Assembly: GCA_023667395.1 (NCBI GenBank)
Contig: JAMPAC010000001.1
Location: 38,615-80,812 of the forward strand
Direction: 5' to 3'
Origin: Blautia sp.
Lineage (GTDB): Bacteria; Bacillota; Clostridia; Lachnospirales; Lachnospiraceae
DNA: 42,198 bases
Part shown: in pieces, positions 7,166 through 26,592 of the stretch
Numbering within the stretch: the stretch's first letter is position 1
Layout of the letters: every line of letters begins with the position of its first letter
Position numbers and translations under genes: made by a program
The notes under the pieces: model-generated
Databases searched by the model: none
What the model was told of the DNA's origin: nothing
The model's input: only the letters and a program-made list of their open reading frames with translations

Positions 7166-7369
7166 TTTATTAAATTAAGTCATCTTCATTATTTTATAGA
7201 AATTTTAACGACTTAATGTCCTGCGGCGTTTCGCCGTTTATACCCTGTACCACAATTCACAAACTGCATTTTACTTCCCTAGGGTTTTGCGTACTTTTGC
7301 GCATATTGCAAAAATTTGCAATTCCAATGAAGTTAAAATGTCACACCACACATGCAAAGGAGAATGCGT

Positions 7370-8407
7370 ATGAACAGCAAGAACACCAACCATGTATCCA
7401 TCAATCCCATTTCCAACCCCATGGGGCCTGACACATCCCCTGCAACCACCCCTGGCACAGGCCTGGATTCCGCCACCGGCCCTGTCTCCATCCCCATGTA
7501 CAATGATTACCTGTTCCGTGCCCTGCTGCAGCGGAACAACCGCGTCCTGAAAGGGCTGATCTGCTCCCTGCTGCATCTGGACAGCGAACAGGTCCGCACC
7601 GTGTCCATCAGGAATCCCATCGAACTGGGCGATACCATTGACAGCAGGGACTTTTTCCTTGATGTCAAGGTACTGATGAACGACCAGACCTATATCAATC
7701 TGGAAATGCAGGTCATCAATGAGCACAACTGGACAGACCGCTCCCTGAGTTACCTCTGCCGTTCCTTTGACCACCTGGAACATGGCCAGGACTACCGCTA
7801 TGCGAAGCCGACCATCCAGATCGGACTGTTAAATTTTACCCTGTTCCCGGAAAACCCGGAGTTTTATGCCACTTATCAATTCCTCAACGTAAAAAATCAT
7901 ATGCCGTATAGTGACAAACTGCGCCTCTCTGTGTTAGACTTAACTCGTATCGACCTAGCCACCGGGGAAGACAAGTCATACCATATCGACTATTGGGCTT
8001 CCCTGTTTAAGTCCACCACATGGGAGGAAATCAAAATGCTTGCACAGAAAGATGATTTGATCAATGATGCATCCAACACCATCTACCAGCTGACCCAGGA
8101 GGAGAAAATACGATTGCAGTGTGAAGCCCGCGAGGATTACTACCGCCGGCAAAACTATGTGGAAGAAGAGTTTGCCAGGAAAGAAGCCGCCCTTGCCGAT
8201 AAGGATGCTGAACTTGCTAAAAAGGACGCTGAAATTGCTGATAAGAACGCTGAAATTGCTGATAGGAACGCTGAAATTGCTGATAAGGACGCTGAAATTG
8301 CTGATAAGAACGCTGAAATTGCTGATAGGAACGCTGAAATTGCTGATAAGGACGCTGAAATTGCACGCCTAAAAAGGCTTCTGTCAAAAAAAGAAAACGT
8401 AAAATAA
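7370..8407 (+). CDS. Rpn-family PD-(D/E)XK nuclease / putative transposase
   Basis: 345 residues. It resembles the PD-(D/E)XK nuclease family 'transposase' proteins (Rpn/YhgA-like, PDDEXK_2). After a Pro/Thr/Ser-rich leader comes YNDYLFRALLQRNNRVLKGLI, then the nuclease core with LDVKVLMNDQTYINLEMQV, which supplies the D...ExQ catalytic pattern. Known relatives are Mg-dependent DNases that promote recA-independent recombination; many are degenerate. The C-terminus (about residues 275-330) is eight 7-residue repeats of the type IADKDAE, predicted to form a charged coiled coil, followed by a basic RLKRLLSKK tail. The start at 7370 is chosen for its AAAGGAG site at 7-nt spacing rather than the ATG at 7352. 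It is a single gene with its own promoter. Confidence 0.85.
   Translation: MNSKNTNHVSINPISNPMGPDTSPATTPGTGLDSATGPVSIPMYNDYLFRALLQRNNRVLKGLICSLLHLDSEQVRTVSIRNPIELGDTIDSRDFFLDVKVLMNDQTYINLEMQVINEHNWTDRSLSYLCRSFDHLEHGQDYRYAKPTIQIGLLNFTLFPENPEFYATYQFLNVKNHMPYSDKLRLSVLDLTRIDLATGEDKSYHIDYWASLFKSTTWEEIKMLAQKDDLINDASNTIYQLTQEEKIRLQCEAREDYYRRQNYVEEEFARKEAALADKDAELAKKDAEIADKNAEIADRNAEIADKDAEIADKNAEIADRNAEIADKDAEIARLKRLLSKKENVK
8192..8359 (+). repeat. Eight 21-bp in-frame tandem repeats in the Rpn gene
   Basis: Eight consecutive 21-bp units encode heptads (LADKDAE, LAKKDAE, then IADKNAE, IADRNAE, IADKDAE twice over). The last six units form two identical 63-bp copies (8234-8296 and 8297-8359), so copying was recent and preserves the frame. 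Slippage or recombination would change tail length in whole heptads without breaking the frame. Confidence 0.95.
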
Positions 8408-9959: not shown

Positions 9960-10652
9960 TCAACAAAGAGACGACTTTTTATACAATATGGAAAATACTG
10001 CCCCAAATACGGCGATATTCATAAGGATGACCGCCGCGCTCCGGGCAGGATCTCCTTCCCCCAGATTCCCCGTCAGCACACGGATCTGTTCGGTATAGGT
10101 GAATCTGGCAATCTTTTCAATCCTGTCATTGAACATGGACAGCATGGGCAGAAAGGAAAATACCATCATCACAGGCACTGAGACCGATGTGGCCGCCATC
10201 TGGTTCCTGCTGCCCACGCCTATGGCAGCCCCCATCACGATGGAGGCAATGATTCCTGCTGCCATGACCAGCAGGAACAATGCCCTCTGACCCGCCGTAA
10301 CATTTTCCAGCAGGCTGCAGAAGACCGCCCCTCCCAGCATGCACGCCAGGAACACATAGCTGCCTATCCCCAGAAGATACTGCCACGGCGTGACATCCGC
10401 CATCATCAGGACGCGCAGGGTATTTTTCTCCTTTTCCTCGGAAATGATGGAGGAAACACAGGTCAGGGGCGCCATTCCTATGTACATGGATGCGAACAGC
10501 GTCACGAAAAAGTTCTCCGGCATACCCTCCAGCCGTATCATGTTCACCATAATGACGCCCAGCGCCGGAAACATCGCAAACTGTATCAACACGATTTGAT
10601 TTTTCAGGGTATCCTTTAATTGTTTTTGCATGATCGTTATGATATGTCTCAT
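9960..10652 (-). CDS. ABC-2 type transporter permease
   Basis: 230 residues with about six hydrophobic segments: near 20-40, 50-68, 95-118, 123-145, 155-175 and 205-225. The cytoplasmic loop SIISEEKEKNTLRVLMM is the characteristic EK-rich motif of ABC-2 exporter permeases of the NatB/YhaP kind. It partners the ATPase immediately upstream; its ATG shares one base with that gene's stop (TAATG), so translation is coupled. Predicted role: membrane half of an efflux or export system under the LytTR regulator of the same operon. The substrate is unknown. Confidence 0.85.
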   Translation of the reverse strand: MRHIITIMQKQLKDTLKNQIVLIQFAMFPALGVIMVNMIRLEGMPENFFVTLFASMYIGMAPLTCVSSIISEEKEKNTLRVLMMADVTPWQYLLGIGSYVFLACMLGGAVFCSLLENVTAGQRALFLLVMAAGIIASIVMGAAIGVGSRNQMAATSVSVPVMMVFSFLPMLSMFNDRIEKIARFTYTEQIRVLTGNLGEGDPARSAAVILMNIAVFGAVFSILYKKSSLC

Positions 10653-11476
10653 TATTCGTTCAGCTTCCTTCCTGTAAGATGCAGAAATACCTTTTCCAGA
10701 TCCGGTTCCGACGAATGGATGCTCCGTATTTTCCCCTCCCGCATCATCCGGGCAAGTATATCCGCGTTTTCCCCGGAATTGGCAAGCACGCGTCTTTCGC
10801 CGTTTTCCAGGATCACTTCTATGTTGTTTTCCAGATTATATTTCATGCATATTTCCTCAGGAACGCCCTGTTCAACAATCTTCCCCTCATTCAGCAGAAG
10901 AATGCTGTCGCACAGCTGCTGTGCCTCATGCATATTGTGGGTGGTCAGGAAAATGGTGGTTCCCGAAGCCTTTTCCGCCCGGATCAGTTCATGGATCTTT
11001 TCCGTGGTGGCGGGATCCAGGCCGGAAGCAGGTTCATCCAGGTACAGAATATCCATCTCTTTCAAAAGCGCCCTGCAGAAGTTCACCCGGTTCCGCATCC
11101 CTTTGGAAAGCTTTCCCACCGCCGTCTTCCTGGCGTCCGCCAATTCCGTCCTTTCCAGAAGCTCCTGGATCTTCTGATCCGGTACCTGGTAAATGGCGGC
11201 GAATATCTTCAGGTTATCCCAGACCGTCAGCCTTTCATACAGTCCAAAACTGTCCATCATGATCCCTGCGGCCAGATGTTCTTTTCGCGTCCTGATCATT
11301 CCCGCTGTGGGGGCGATCTGCCCCGTCAGGATATTCACCAGCGTGGTCTTGCCCGCGCCGGAGGGTCCCAGCAGGCCTATCACCCTGCCTTCTTCTATCT
11401 GTAGTGAAATATTGTCCAGAACACATTTTTTCCCAAAAGAATGGGAAAGATGATCAGCCTCCATCAAGATTGCCAT
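10652..11476 (-). CDS. ABC transporter ATP-binding protein
   Basis: 274 residues. It has a canonical nucleotide-binding domain: Walker A GPSGAGKTT, signature LSKGMRNR, Walker B ILYLDEPASGLDP and switch His in TTHNMHEA. A short C-terminal extension ends in SEPDLEKVFLHLTGRKL, typical of ABC-2 exporter ATPases (CcmA/NatA-like). The open frame continues 34 codons further upstream into the 112-bp repeats, but the start at 11476 (MAILMEADHL) has GGAGG 8 nt before it, so the upstream part is judged non-coding. It is an energy-supplying partner of the permease at 9960-10652. The tandem hairpin array separates it from DUF3021 and may affect its expression. Confidence 0.92.
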   Translation of the reverse strand: MAILMEADHLSHSFGKKCVLDNISLQIEEGRVIGLLGPSGAGKTTLVNILTGQIAPTAGMIRTRKEHLAAGIMMDSFGLYERLTVWDNLKIFAAIYQVPDQKIQELLERTELADARKTAVGKLSKGMRNRVNFCRALLKEMDILYLDEPASGLDPATTEKIHELIRAEKASGTTIFLTTHNMHEAQQLCDSILLLNEGKIVEQGVPEEICMKYNLENNIEVILENGERRVLANSGENADILARMMREGKIRSIHSSEPDLEKVFLHLTGRKLNE

Positions 11477-11487
11477 ACAACATGCCT

Positions 11488-11820
11488 CCATTCCAGTGCC
11501 GTCTCTACACTTCAATGCCCCTGCGGGGGAAGAAATTTTCATCTGTACAGACCACAGCTGAAAATTCCTTCCGGGCATTTCCGTTCCGAGACTGTTTTTC
11601 CATTCCAGTGCCGTCTCTACACTTCAATGCCCCTGCGGGGGAAGAAATTTTCATCTGTACAGACCACAGCTGAAAATTCCTTCCGGGCATTTCCGTTCCG
11701 AGACTGTTTTTCCATTCCAGTGCCGTCTCTACACTTCAGCCCCCTTGGCGGGGACGGATTCTTCAGACGCCTGTGCGTCTGAAAATCTTTCCGGGGGCTT
11801 CCGTTCCGAGACTGTTTTTT
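11488..11820. repeat. Three tandem 112-bp hairpin units
   Basis: Units start at 11488, 11600 and 11712. Units 1 and 2 are essentially identical; unit 3 (109 bp) keeps both ends (CCATTCCAGTGCCGTCTCTA and CCGTTCCGAGACTGTTTTT) but has a different middle. Each unit folds on itself: GTCTC with GAGAC outside, AATGCCC with GGGCATT next, and GAATTTTCA with TGAAAATTC inside. In unit 3 the stems are kept by different bases: AGCCCCC with GGGGGCT, and TTCAGACGC with GCGTCTGAA. Frames that read through these units are in all likelihood fortuitous. The array lies between DUF3021 and the ABC ATPase in a five-gene minus-strand block. Confidence 0.9.
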
Positions 11821-11852
11821 ATTCAATTGCCGCTTGCGGCAATTTGTTCCGC
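11820..11852. repeat. 33-bp dispersed palindrome, copy 1
   Basis: The plus strand reads TATTCAATTGCC, a six-base centre GCTTGC, then GGCAATTTGTTCCGC. The same 33-bp frame with only the six central bases changed occurs at 40952-40984. It abuts the third 112-bp unit and follows the DUF3021 stop. A second small hairpin (ATGTGCC/GGCATAT) lies next to it. Confidence 0.75.
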
Positions 11853-11880
11853 CATGTGCCTGAAAGGCATATTGTTCACT

Positions 11881-12369
11881 TCAATGCTTCTGCTCCGTTA
11901 CCTGCTGTTCTTTCAAATGCCGCAGTCCTTCCTCCAGCTGCCTGTTGTCCAGGGATTCCTTCCATGCGGAAACCGCCCAGGCGATGATAAAGCAGAGACC
12001 GAACGAGATCAAAAAGCAGATCCAGCACCTGGGATCGTCAACCGGGAACCAGCCGAAGCAATACGCAAACACCCCTATCAGCGCAATGACCGAAACCAGC
12101 ATTCCTATGGTTCTCTTTGCAATGGACATTTTCCTGATTACCCTGTCCGAAAAAAACAGGAACCTGATCACCATGATACAGACGGAATTCAATAAAAACT
12201 GCAGGATTGTATTTGACGGTATTCCTTCCTTTCCCAGCGCAAACATGGTGGAAAATCCCCTGGCCTCCTCCCCCACCAGATTACATAAAAGGGTGAGCGC
12301 CAGCATGGACGCCCCGAATGCGATCATTGTCTGTGCCATATAGTCCAATATATTTTTCCGCTCTCTCAT
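11881..12369 (-). CDS. DUF3021 family membrane protein
   Basis: 162 residues with four predicted membrane helices: about 13-31, 49-70, 85-107 and 116-134, the last two containing FAYCFGWFP and CFLISFGLCFIIAW. A charged C-terminal tail follows. DUF3021 proteins are habitually encoded directly after a small LytTR regulator and are thought to hold or modulate that regulator at the membrane; the same arrangement is seen here, 23 bp after the LytTR gene. Function beyond this pairing is inference. The stop lies just before the palindromic repeats. Confidence 0.85.
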   Translation of the reverse strand: MRERKNILDYMAQTMIAFGASMLALTLLCNLVGEEARGFSTMFALGKEGIPSNTILQFLLNSVCIMVIRFLFFSDRVIRKMSIAKRTIGMLVSVIALIGVFAYCFGWFPVDDPRCWICFLISFGLCFIIAWAVSAWKESLDNRQLEEGLRHLKEQQVTEQKH

Positions 12370-12392: not shown

Positions 12393-12836
12393 TCAGAATT
12401 CTTTCCTCAATAATCCCTTGATATTCTCCGCATACTGCCGCGACACCACCAGCTGCTCACCGTTCATCAATGTCATCAGCAGCCGCCTGTCCAGATATGT
12501 TTTGATGGATTCCACATTTTTCAGGTTCACAATGCACGATTTATTGATGCGGACAAACAGGTACTGCCCCAGCTGCTGCTCCAGTTCATAGAGCCTGCTG
12601 CCGGATTCATACAGTTTATCCGCCGTGTAGAGGAAACACTTTCCATCCACCGACTCTATATACATGATCTTCTCCAGATCCAATACCGTTATCTTTCCCT
12701 CATGGTAAACCGTGATCTGCCTGTCAATGATCCGGAGCGCCGCCACCAGCCTGTCAACCAGGGCGTTATGCTCCCTGCACTTTATGGTGACCACCGTGTC
12801 CTCCATCTCTTCCCGGATCTCTATGTTGATCTTCAA
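12393..12836 (-). CDS. LytTR-domain transcriptional regulator
   Basis: 147 residues. A short N-terminal portion (1-45) without a receiver domain is followed by a LytTR DNA-binding domain (about 45-145) with the typical IMYIESVDGKCFLYT, YELEQQL and FVRINKSCIVNLKNVESI segments. It should bind DNA directly, not by phosphotransfer. The start codon is TTG at 12836, supported by GGGGAGG at 7-nt spacing. It is the first gene of a probable operon with DUF3021 and the ABC transporter pair, which it likely controls, together with itself. Confidence 0.9.
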   Translation of the reverse strand: MKINIEIREEMEDTVVTIKCREHNALVDRLVAALRIIDRQITVYHEGKITVLDLEKIMYIESVDGKCFLYTADKLYESGSRLYELEQQLGQYLFVRINKSCIVNLKNVESIKTYLDRRLLMTLMNGEQLVVSRQYAENIKGLLRKEF

Positions 12837-26460: not shown

Positions 26461-26592
26461 TTAGTAGTTGTTGTTCTGGCTGTTCTGGTTCTTATTCTGG
26501 TTGTTGTTCTGATTCTTGTTGTTCTGATTGTTCTGGTTCTGGTTGTTCTGATTCTGATTGTTGTTCTGGTTGCTGTTCTTACAATTATCCAT
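26461..26592 (-). CDS. 43-residue Asn/Gln-rich small protein
   Basis: ATG at 26592 preceded by GAGGAAG, stop TAA at 26461. The protein begins MDNCKNSNQNNNQNQ and ends QNSQNNNY; 24 of 43 residues are Asn and 10 are Gln, with three Lys, two Ser, one Cys, one Asp and a terminal Tyr. It is low-complexity, without hydrophobic core or signal peptide. The codons mix AAC and AAT while CAG is always used for Gln, which argues for selection on protein sequence over a simple DNA repeat. The gene has its own 5' hairpin (GCCGC/GCGGC, near 26609-26622) and 3' hairpin. I do not know its function; similar short N/Q-rich proteins are prone to self-assembly, but that is inference. Confidence 0.7.
   Translation of the reverse strand: MDNCKNSNQNNNQNQNNQNQNNQNNKNQNNNQNKNQNSQNNNY

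Follow-up and report, generated by a model that had tools for sequence, protein, structure and literature searches.

Three tandem units, each able to fold into a hairpin, lie between a DUF3021-like gene and an ABC transporter ATPase gene in the genome of Blautia sp. (Lachnospiraceae), and raise the question of whether they form an RNA that belongs to this operon or are local copies of a structured element with a wider distribution, on which strand such an element would act, and what it would do there. We addressed this question in a 42,198-nt stretch of DNA from assembly GCA_023667395.1 (contig JAMPAC010000001.1), hereafter the window. An earlier note on the window had proposed compensatory stem changes between the units, selection for structure, and a location either within the minus-strand mRNA of the operon or in antisense RNAs of the plus strand, and had suggested a covariance-model search of related genomes. 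A blastn search of the source genome with the array as query gave at least 45 matches (40 of 127 candidates were scored), and 67 units were gathered from 39 loci and the window, 40 of which were used to build a covariance model, R1. The search with R1 revealed many dispersed copies with preserved structure, both in the source genome and in related genomes.

The array and its neighbouring genes

The tandem array is present as the earlier note described it, with two identical 112-bp units followed by a variant unit (Table 1), and the replacement of the stem AATGCCC/GGGCATT in this variant, together with an altered inner stem, was also found. Read on the minus strand, and hence as RNA, a unit runs AAAACAGTCTC...GAGACGGCACTGGAATGGAGG; in unit 1, the CTGGAAT end is followed at once by the GGAGG Shine-Dalgarno (SD) sequence of the ABC ATPase gene, with the start codon 8 nt further on. 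That the array ends at this SD supports its location within the operon mRNA on the minus strand. The sequence GAGACTGTTTTT, previously read as the plus-strand end of each unit, does occur there, but it is really the reverse complement of the conserved 5' end of the minus-strand unit. R1 reports units 1 to 3 and gives no match at a fourth, truncated unit, inside which the stop codon of the DUF3021-like gene is located.

Table 1. Features of the array and its flanking genes, in window coordinates (bit scores of units refer to R1).
Feature	Position	Strand	Basis or remark
Unit 1 (SD-proximal, complete)	11487..11598	-	R1 120.2 bits; unit 1 is itself part of the model
Unit 1 ends: 5' AAAACAG; 3' tail GGCACTGGAAT		-	
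Unit 1 P1, GTCTC/GAGAC	11501-11505 with 11588-11592	+	
Unit 1 P2	11514-11520 with 11573-11579	+	
Unit 1 P3	11528-11547 with 11553-11572	+	
Unit 2, identical to unit 1	11599..11710	-	Sequence comparison, R1
Unit 3, outer ends as in units 1 and 2, other interior subtype	11711..11818	-	R1 105.9 bits; unit 3 is itself in the model
Unit 3 P2, AGCCCCC/GGGGGCT; inner stem TTCAGACGC/GCGTCTGAA		-	
Unit 3 5' A-run	reaches about 11822	-	
Fourth unit, 5'-truncated, with two mini-hairpin modules	about 11820..11893	-	By eye against the family
Mini-hairpin module AATTGCCGCAAGCGGCAATT, between a unit's P1 and 3' tail	11825..11844	-	
Second mini-hairpin, ATATGCC...GGCACAT, within the truncated unit	11854..11872	-	By eye
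GGAGG SD of the ABC ATPase gene, directly adjoining the unit 1 tail GGAAT	11485..11489	-	
ABC transporter ATPase gene (Pfam ABC_tran), downstream	10652..11476	-	Start at 11476
DUF3021-like gene, upstream	11881..12369	-	24.0 bits, just below the 24.7 cut-off
LytTR DNA-binding domain gene, further upstream	12393..12836	-	

The best relative of unit 3 among the scored blastn matches is a copy on another contig (92% identity over 108 nt), while unit 2 reaches only 79%; we therefore regard unit 3 as a representative of another interior subtype rather than as unit 1 altered in place. The compensation previously read from the three units is real at the level of the family, where it appears as covariation, but is not a simple record of change within this array. 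Two other repeats were observed elsewhere in the window, including (i) a 21-bp coding tandem repeat of about 8 copies at 8193-8364, which specifies an IADKNAE-like peptide, is possibly variable in length, and lies close to where the PDDEXK_2 family gene at 7352-8407 ends, and (ii) low-complexity repeats of the GTTGTTGTTCTGATT type, with several periods, at 26467-26571.

Structure, covariation and strand

The units share an architecture consisting of a 5' ACAG, a long hairpin of 33-34 base pairs that is interrupted by an 8-nt bulge on its 3' side, and a tail, CGGAACTGGAATAGGAGG; the tail and the 5' ACAG are kept across subfamilies while the stems change. In an alignment of 40 units, standard pairs occupied 94.6% of 1289 cells and double changes were found at 23 of 33 pairs. 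The covariation score of this alignment was 0.286, as compared to 0.146 for shuffled alignments (none of 500 reached the native score) and 0.056-0.099 when the pairing partner was slid, where the reference structure, taken from one member, is favoured over the slid versions and the 40 units are mutually related. A further 25 units, found with R1 in other species, were aligned and folded independently of the model. This second alignment has largely different stem sequences and nevertheless folds to one hairpin with an 8-column 3' bulge, the architecture of the source genome, with double changes at 22 of its 34 pairs. Covariation beyond that of shuffles, combined with tolerance of G.U pairs on the sense strand, characterizes these units as a structured RNA and bears out the selection for structure that had been proposed from three units.

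With regard to strand, G.U pairs outnumbered A.C mismatches in the mRNA-strand reading by 50 to 17 and by 57 to 7 in the two alignments; the corresponding lean per pair was 11/15 (p = 0.12, alignment A2) and 13/15 (p = 0.007, alignment A3), and a single pair supplies 24 of the G.U cells in each alignment. Given this excess, selection most likely acts on folding of the mRNA strand. When compared to dinucleotide shuffles, units 1, 2, and 3 folded with z scores of -3.95, -3.95, and -4.02 on the minus strand and of -2.95, -2.95, and -3.71 on the plus strand. The suggestion of plus-strand antisense RNAs was not supported, as G.U exceeds A.C on the minus (mRNA) strand and copies adjoin SDs in that orientation. 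A single plus-strand terminator-like match was found in unit 3 (the region total was 4, versus 1.6 in shuffles), while the strand asymmetry argues for the other strand, so that a plus-strand role as terminator or antisense RNA is disfavoured.

Units also carry inserted mini-hairpins, roughly 18-28 nt long, at recurring places, with their palindromes kept and their letters differing, and such modules end about a quarter of arrays (24/99); CAATGTGCC...GGCACATGG inserts are seen, for example, in the unit at L310:4159-4291.

Copy number, position and turnover

R1 identified 132 matches in the source genome, which form 99 arrays when grouped at a gap of ≤150 nt (75 single, 17 double, 5 triple, and 2 quadruple), with a unit length of about 106-117 nt without inserts. 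A co-oriented start codon within 60 nt, followed by a frame open for at least 60 codons or to the end of the stretch, was found for 95 of the 99 arrays (94 ATG, 1 GTG); one of these 95 passes is spurious, representing a 5-codon frame at a contig end, while among the four arrays that failed, two have an ATG with masked bases directly behind it and the other two precede another degenerate unit. Under a stricter test, which demanded an ATG together with an SD-like string under the same frame rule, 88 of 95 arrays passed on the same strand, as compared to 1 of 95 in a mirror control (opposite strand, other end) and 295 of 4000 random positions (7.4%). The tail adjoins the SD directly in 70 of 95 arrays. 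A same-strand upstream frame of at least 80 codons ends no more than 400 nt away or inside the array in 91 of 95 cases, which fits operons but is weak by itself. The family is thus non-coding, high-copy and intergenic, as MITEs are, with nearly all of its 99 arrays just 5' of start codons.

Twenty downstream proteins, about half of which were chosen as recognisable-looking, were scanned; proS, truB, radA, pyrD, prfA, obgE, cmk, purA, and gltA scored above the cut-off, while best matches below it included pcrA and clpB (both truncated where the stretch ends), ATP synthase subunit c, Hsp18, spoIIIAG, and transporter ATPases, among others. No functional class was common to these 20 proteins, and the coherent downstream gene class expected of a riboswitch or gene-specific leader was therefore not found among them. 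As copies precede many unrelated genes, the ABC/LytTR operon context of the array in the window is incidental.

Among relatives, R1 matches were found in 8 of 61 genomes, all 8 within the genus, and in 6 of 299 genomes drawn across the family (the source genome is included in both counts; in the family-wide survey 12 candidates were scored per genome, and the counts are lower bounds); 24 genomes from 24 other families of the order gave 0 matches. Carriers are patchily distributed and most have many copies, with few in G001 (6), G025 (3), and G237 (1). A tail-plus-SD string (≤1 mismatch) had 58 occurrences in the source genome, 27 in G014, 20 in G019, 28 in G020, 38 in G077, and 24 in G248, 1-5 in G001, G062, G021, G026, G336, and G345, and 0 or 1 in 13 genus members without R1 matches; a reversed control occurred 0 or 1 times. 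The exact string CGGAACTGGAATRGGAGG was found in at least 116 stretches of the named genome collection. By hand count, the 80 stretches listed came from 36 assemblies, 34 of which are labelled Lachnospiraceae, Lachnoclostridium, Acetatifactor, [Clostridium] symbiosum, Clostridia, or plain bacterium; a Bathyarchaeota and an Oscillatoria record among those listed are likely chance matches. With these two outliers left out, R1 gave 103 matches at E ≤0.01 in 64 of the remaining 78 loci (hand count). Versions that share the architecture but diverge in sequence are carried by other Lachnospiraceae.

Rfam 15 gave no match at the array at gathering level, nor up to E 10 in 541 bases, and no match at the element in 17 loci with homologues, in agreement with the earlier note's failure to recognise an RNA class. 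The element had no match in plasmids and phages by distant blastn, nor its exact tail pattern in viral contigs. A search of open-licence PMC papers identified analogues and no description of this hairpin family, which is apparently undescribed.

To follow individual sites, orthologues of cmk, proS, and truB were located in 39, 40, and 41 of 41 genus genomes, respectively, and the 30 best loci of each were compared; G001 and G062 were also set against the source genome at three further arrays, including one before purA. All six sites are devoid of R1 matches in these two relatives, whose matches across the whole genome number four strong and two weak in G001 and four weak in G062. By eye, G001 appears to retain remnants that have lost the hairpin at proS and truB, with no recognisable trace at cmk, and several more distant genus members have, before proS, a differently spelled sequence with a similar tail at its end. 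At purA, the SD and start (AATGGAGGAAAATCATGG) are common to all three genomes while the sequence in front differs, and the remaining two sites are empty or hold other sequence in G001 and G062. Copies thus come and go between close relatives (the genomes compared represent one per species), and the remnants in G001 indicate that part of the difference reflects loss rather than gain. Element-free related sites are too diverged for a target-site duplication to be read. In a nearest-neighbour comparison of 70 of the 103 matches and one unit from each of 40 loci of the source genome, the nearest relative lay at another locus of the source genome for 36 of its 40 units, while it lay in the same genome for 15 of 44 units from other genomes, a lower share that reflects subfamilies common to several species.

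Different repeats were also observed at or near the sites examined. A repeat of about 170 bp lies between two genes at L310:7737-7909 and recurs over a dozen times in the close relative G001 (blastn); at L364 (about 1959-2245), the G001 site orthologous to one array has an unrelated AT-rich, GAAGAGACTTCATAGT-like tandem repeat before the same gene; and another small hairpin of G001 (GCCGCC...GGCGGCATGGCGGGAAG-like), located upstream of two sites (L371 and the cmk locus), perhaps represents a further SD-near repeat family.

Origin and function of the family

Our preferred reading, held with moderate confidence, is that the array belongs to a high-copy, lineage-specific repeat family that is non-autonomous and BOX/MITE-like and that persists 5' of SDs in mRNA sense. 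Counting against this reading, no target-site duplication, donor element, parent insertion sequence or mobility gene was encountered, and the comparison of one genome per species showed no insertion within a species. By analogy, the family would work most like BOX or MITE-type structured repeats. In the available part of the source, BOX, RUP, and SPRITE of Streptococcus pneumoniae are regarded as parasites whose structure is likely to influence the genes transcribed with them, and some of these repeats are reported as shown to be transcribed (PMC3049150). They resemble the present family as small, interspersed, structured repeats of a Gram-positive host that are, in the same part of that source, nearly absent from most relatives (PMC3049150); by description rather than by sequence, they differ from it in that each copy of the present family forms a single long hairpin with covarying stems, lies in mRNA sense and mostly has its tail against the SD, and in that the subfamilies have very different stem sequences across species. 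ERIC and Correia/NEMIS MITEs are likewise non-coding, high-copy, and intergenic, and form stable stem-loop transcripts that alter mRNA decay in published cases, according to the available part of PMC10969869; by contrast, the conserved, unpaired ends ACAG and GGAACTGGAAT are not inverted repeats of each other, and the copies are positioned at SDs.

A genome-wide regulon, in which the leader would bind a hypothetical trans-acting RNA-binding factor and thereby control translation of about 100 genes at their SDs, appears rather unlikely, even though several observations fit it. Copies adjoin SDs in the sense orientation only, the tail and the 5' ACAG are the parts that stay constant among subfamilies, and genomes tend to carry many copies or none. 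In addition, the tail reads GGA-ACT-GGA-ATA-GGA-GG, with a GGA motif every 6 nt, and GGA motifs are of the kind bound by CsrA-type proteins. A precedent is provided by the TAACTGA repeats of Beggiatoaceae, which lie just upstream of start codons and for which S1, Csp, or Csr are named as candidate binders in the available part of the source (PMC4679880); the SD docking of the present family recalls this position, although those repeats are heptamer direct repeats rather than a 110-nt covarying hairpin. Arguing against a regulon, the 20 scanned downstream genes lack a common function, and orthologous genes of close relatives lack the element or have other sequence in its place.

RNA-mediated retroposition, in which element RNA would be copied back into DNA from its 3' tail, in a SINE-like manner, next to SD-like purine tracts, would yield constant 3' ends, 5'-truncated copies, and head-to-tail arrays. 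The broken copies bear on this directly. A local profile search of fetched stretches of the source genome, with loci chosen by the tail string left out, identified 121 complete copies, 7 internal deletions, 2 fragments, 29 copies that lack the 5' part with the 3' end intact, and 6 with the reverse; among the four of these 6 that were looked at, one lies at a contig end, two do show a 3' side, and one truly lacks it. Furthermore, inspection by eye shows frequent truncation of the unit at an array's 5' end, the window included, and resolved copies are in mRNA sense. While this asymmetry fits retroposition, a pattern search for the 5' end found 133 places (0 in a reversed control), and 12 R1-negative places were examined among the matches listed; in several of these, both termini remain while the hairpin has been lost between short GGAA/CGGAAC repeats. 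Plain deletion between such direct repeats, together with selection for the SD side, can thus explain the asymmetry as well. Adjacent units were at least 90% identical in 16 of 26 pairs, at 12 of 21 loci, indicating that many arrays are made by local tandem duplication, which fits these pairs better than retroposition does. We therefore downgraded 5' truncation as proof of reverse transcription and consider retroposition improbable. A SINE-like retroposon homing to SDs, by which a 110-nt structured RNA was written before about 100 genes, would accordingly be a long shot; if true, it would have become a common leader of unrelated genes, including housekeeping ones.

A slightly more doubtful explanation still is that these are intercistronic processing or stabilisation stem-loops shaped by host selection only, with their similarity due to gene conversion rather than mobility. 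The position between an upstream frame and an SD agrees with this, and stem-loops between operon cistrons act in the selective RNA processing and stabilisation (SRPS) described for Clostridium cellulolyticum (PMC4423207). In the available part of that source, however, the stem-loops lie at the 3' ends of highly transcribed genes and are not described as one homologous repeat family (PMC4423207), whereas the shared ends of 99 arrays, the similarity among units of the source genome (36 of 40), and the differences between close relatives at the same sites point to copying.

REPs are much shorter than the unit of about 110 nt, and movement of a REP-like element by an IS200/IS605-type Y1 transposase (RAYT) via a single-stranded DNA hairpin is very improbable: the imperfect hairpin with its one-sided bulge, the short conserved motif at its foot, the high copy number, and the intergenic, tandem arrangement do recall REP/BIME elements, but the copies sit at SDs and neither a Y1 that goes with carrier genomes nor a hairpin of REP size was found. 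Of 12 genomes with R1 matches, 5 gave a Y1_Tnp (PF01797) match, as did 7 of 13 without; the domain was not detected in the source genome (G000), G001, G019 (80% complete), G021, G077, G345, or the weakly matching G062, and hence in 6 of 11 R1 genomes when G062 is left out. Showing no association with R1 carriage and being undetected in the source genome, a Y1 transposase was rejected as the mobiliser.

Returning to the BOX/MITE-like repeat family, small non-coding repeats would have spread as non-autonomous elements, and copies in mRNA sense would persist immediately 5' of an SD, in the interval that separates it from the upstream stop codon (or leader). Each copy would presumably be transcribed together with its gene and fold into one long, self-contained hairpin, such that the single-stranded tail would run into the SD and the hairpin would separate the SD from the upstream cistron. 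The predicted unpaired probability of SD and start, calculated for 61 arrays selected by length, was 0.573 for native units, 0.532 after shuffling of the unit, and 0.579 with no unit; native exceeded shuffled in 43 of 61 arrays (p = 0.0009) and was no different from no unit (p = 0.48), and the effect on accessibility is small. Because the hairpin pairs within itself, the SD and start codon thus stay about as accessible as they would be without it, which may explain why a repeat is tolerated at this position. The hairpin would be expected to act as a 5' boundary that is neutral to helpful for the downstream cistron, through mRNA stabilisation or insulation, rather than as a ligand switch. Conservation of structure across the family exceeds what a purely parasitic repeat would need, and thus leaves room for a host function.

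The putative spread of the family raises the question of its mobility. If the preferred reading is true, about a hundred genes of this Blautia sp., several of them housekeeping genes, would have gained homologous structured leaders that adjoin their ribosome-binding sites, as would genes of related species with different sequences, which would provide a natural experiment, by site and by species, on the effect of a hairpin placed just 5' of an SD.
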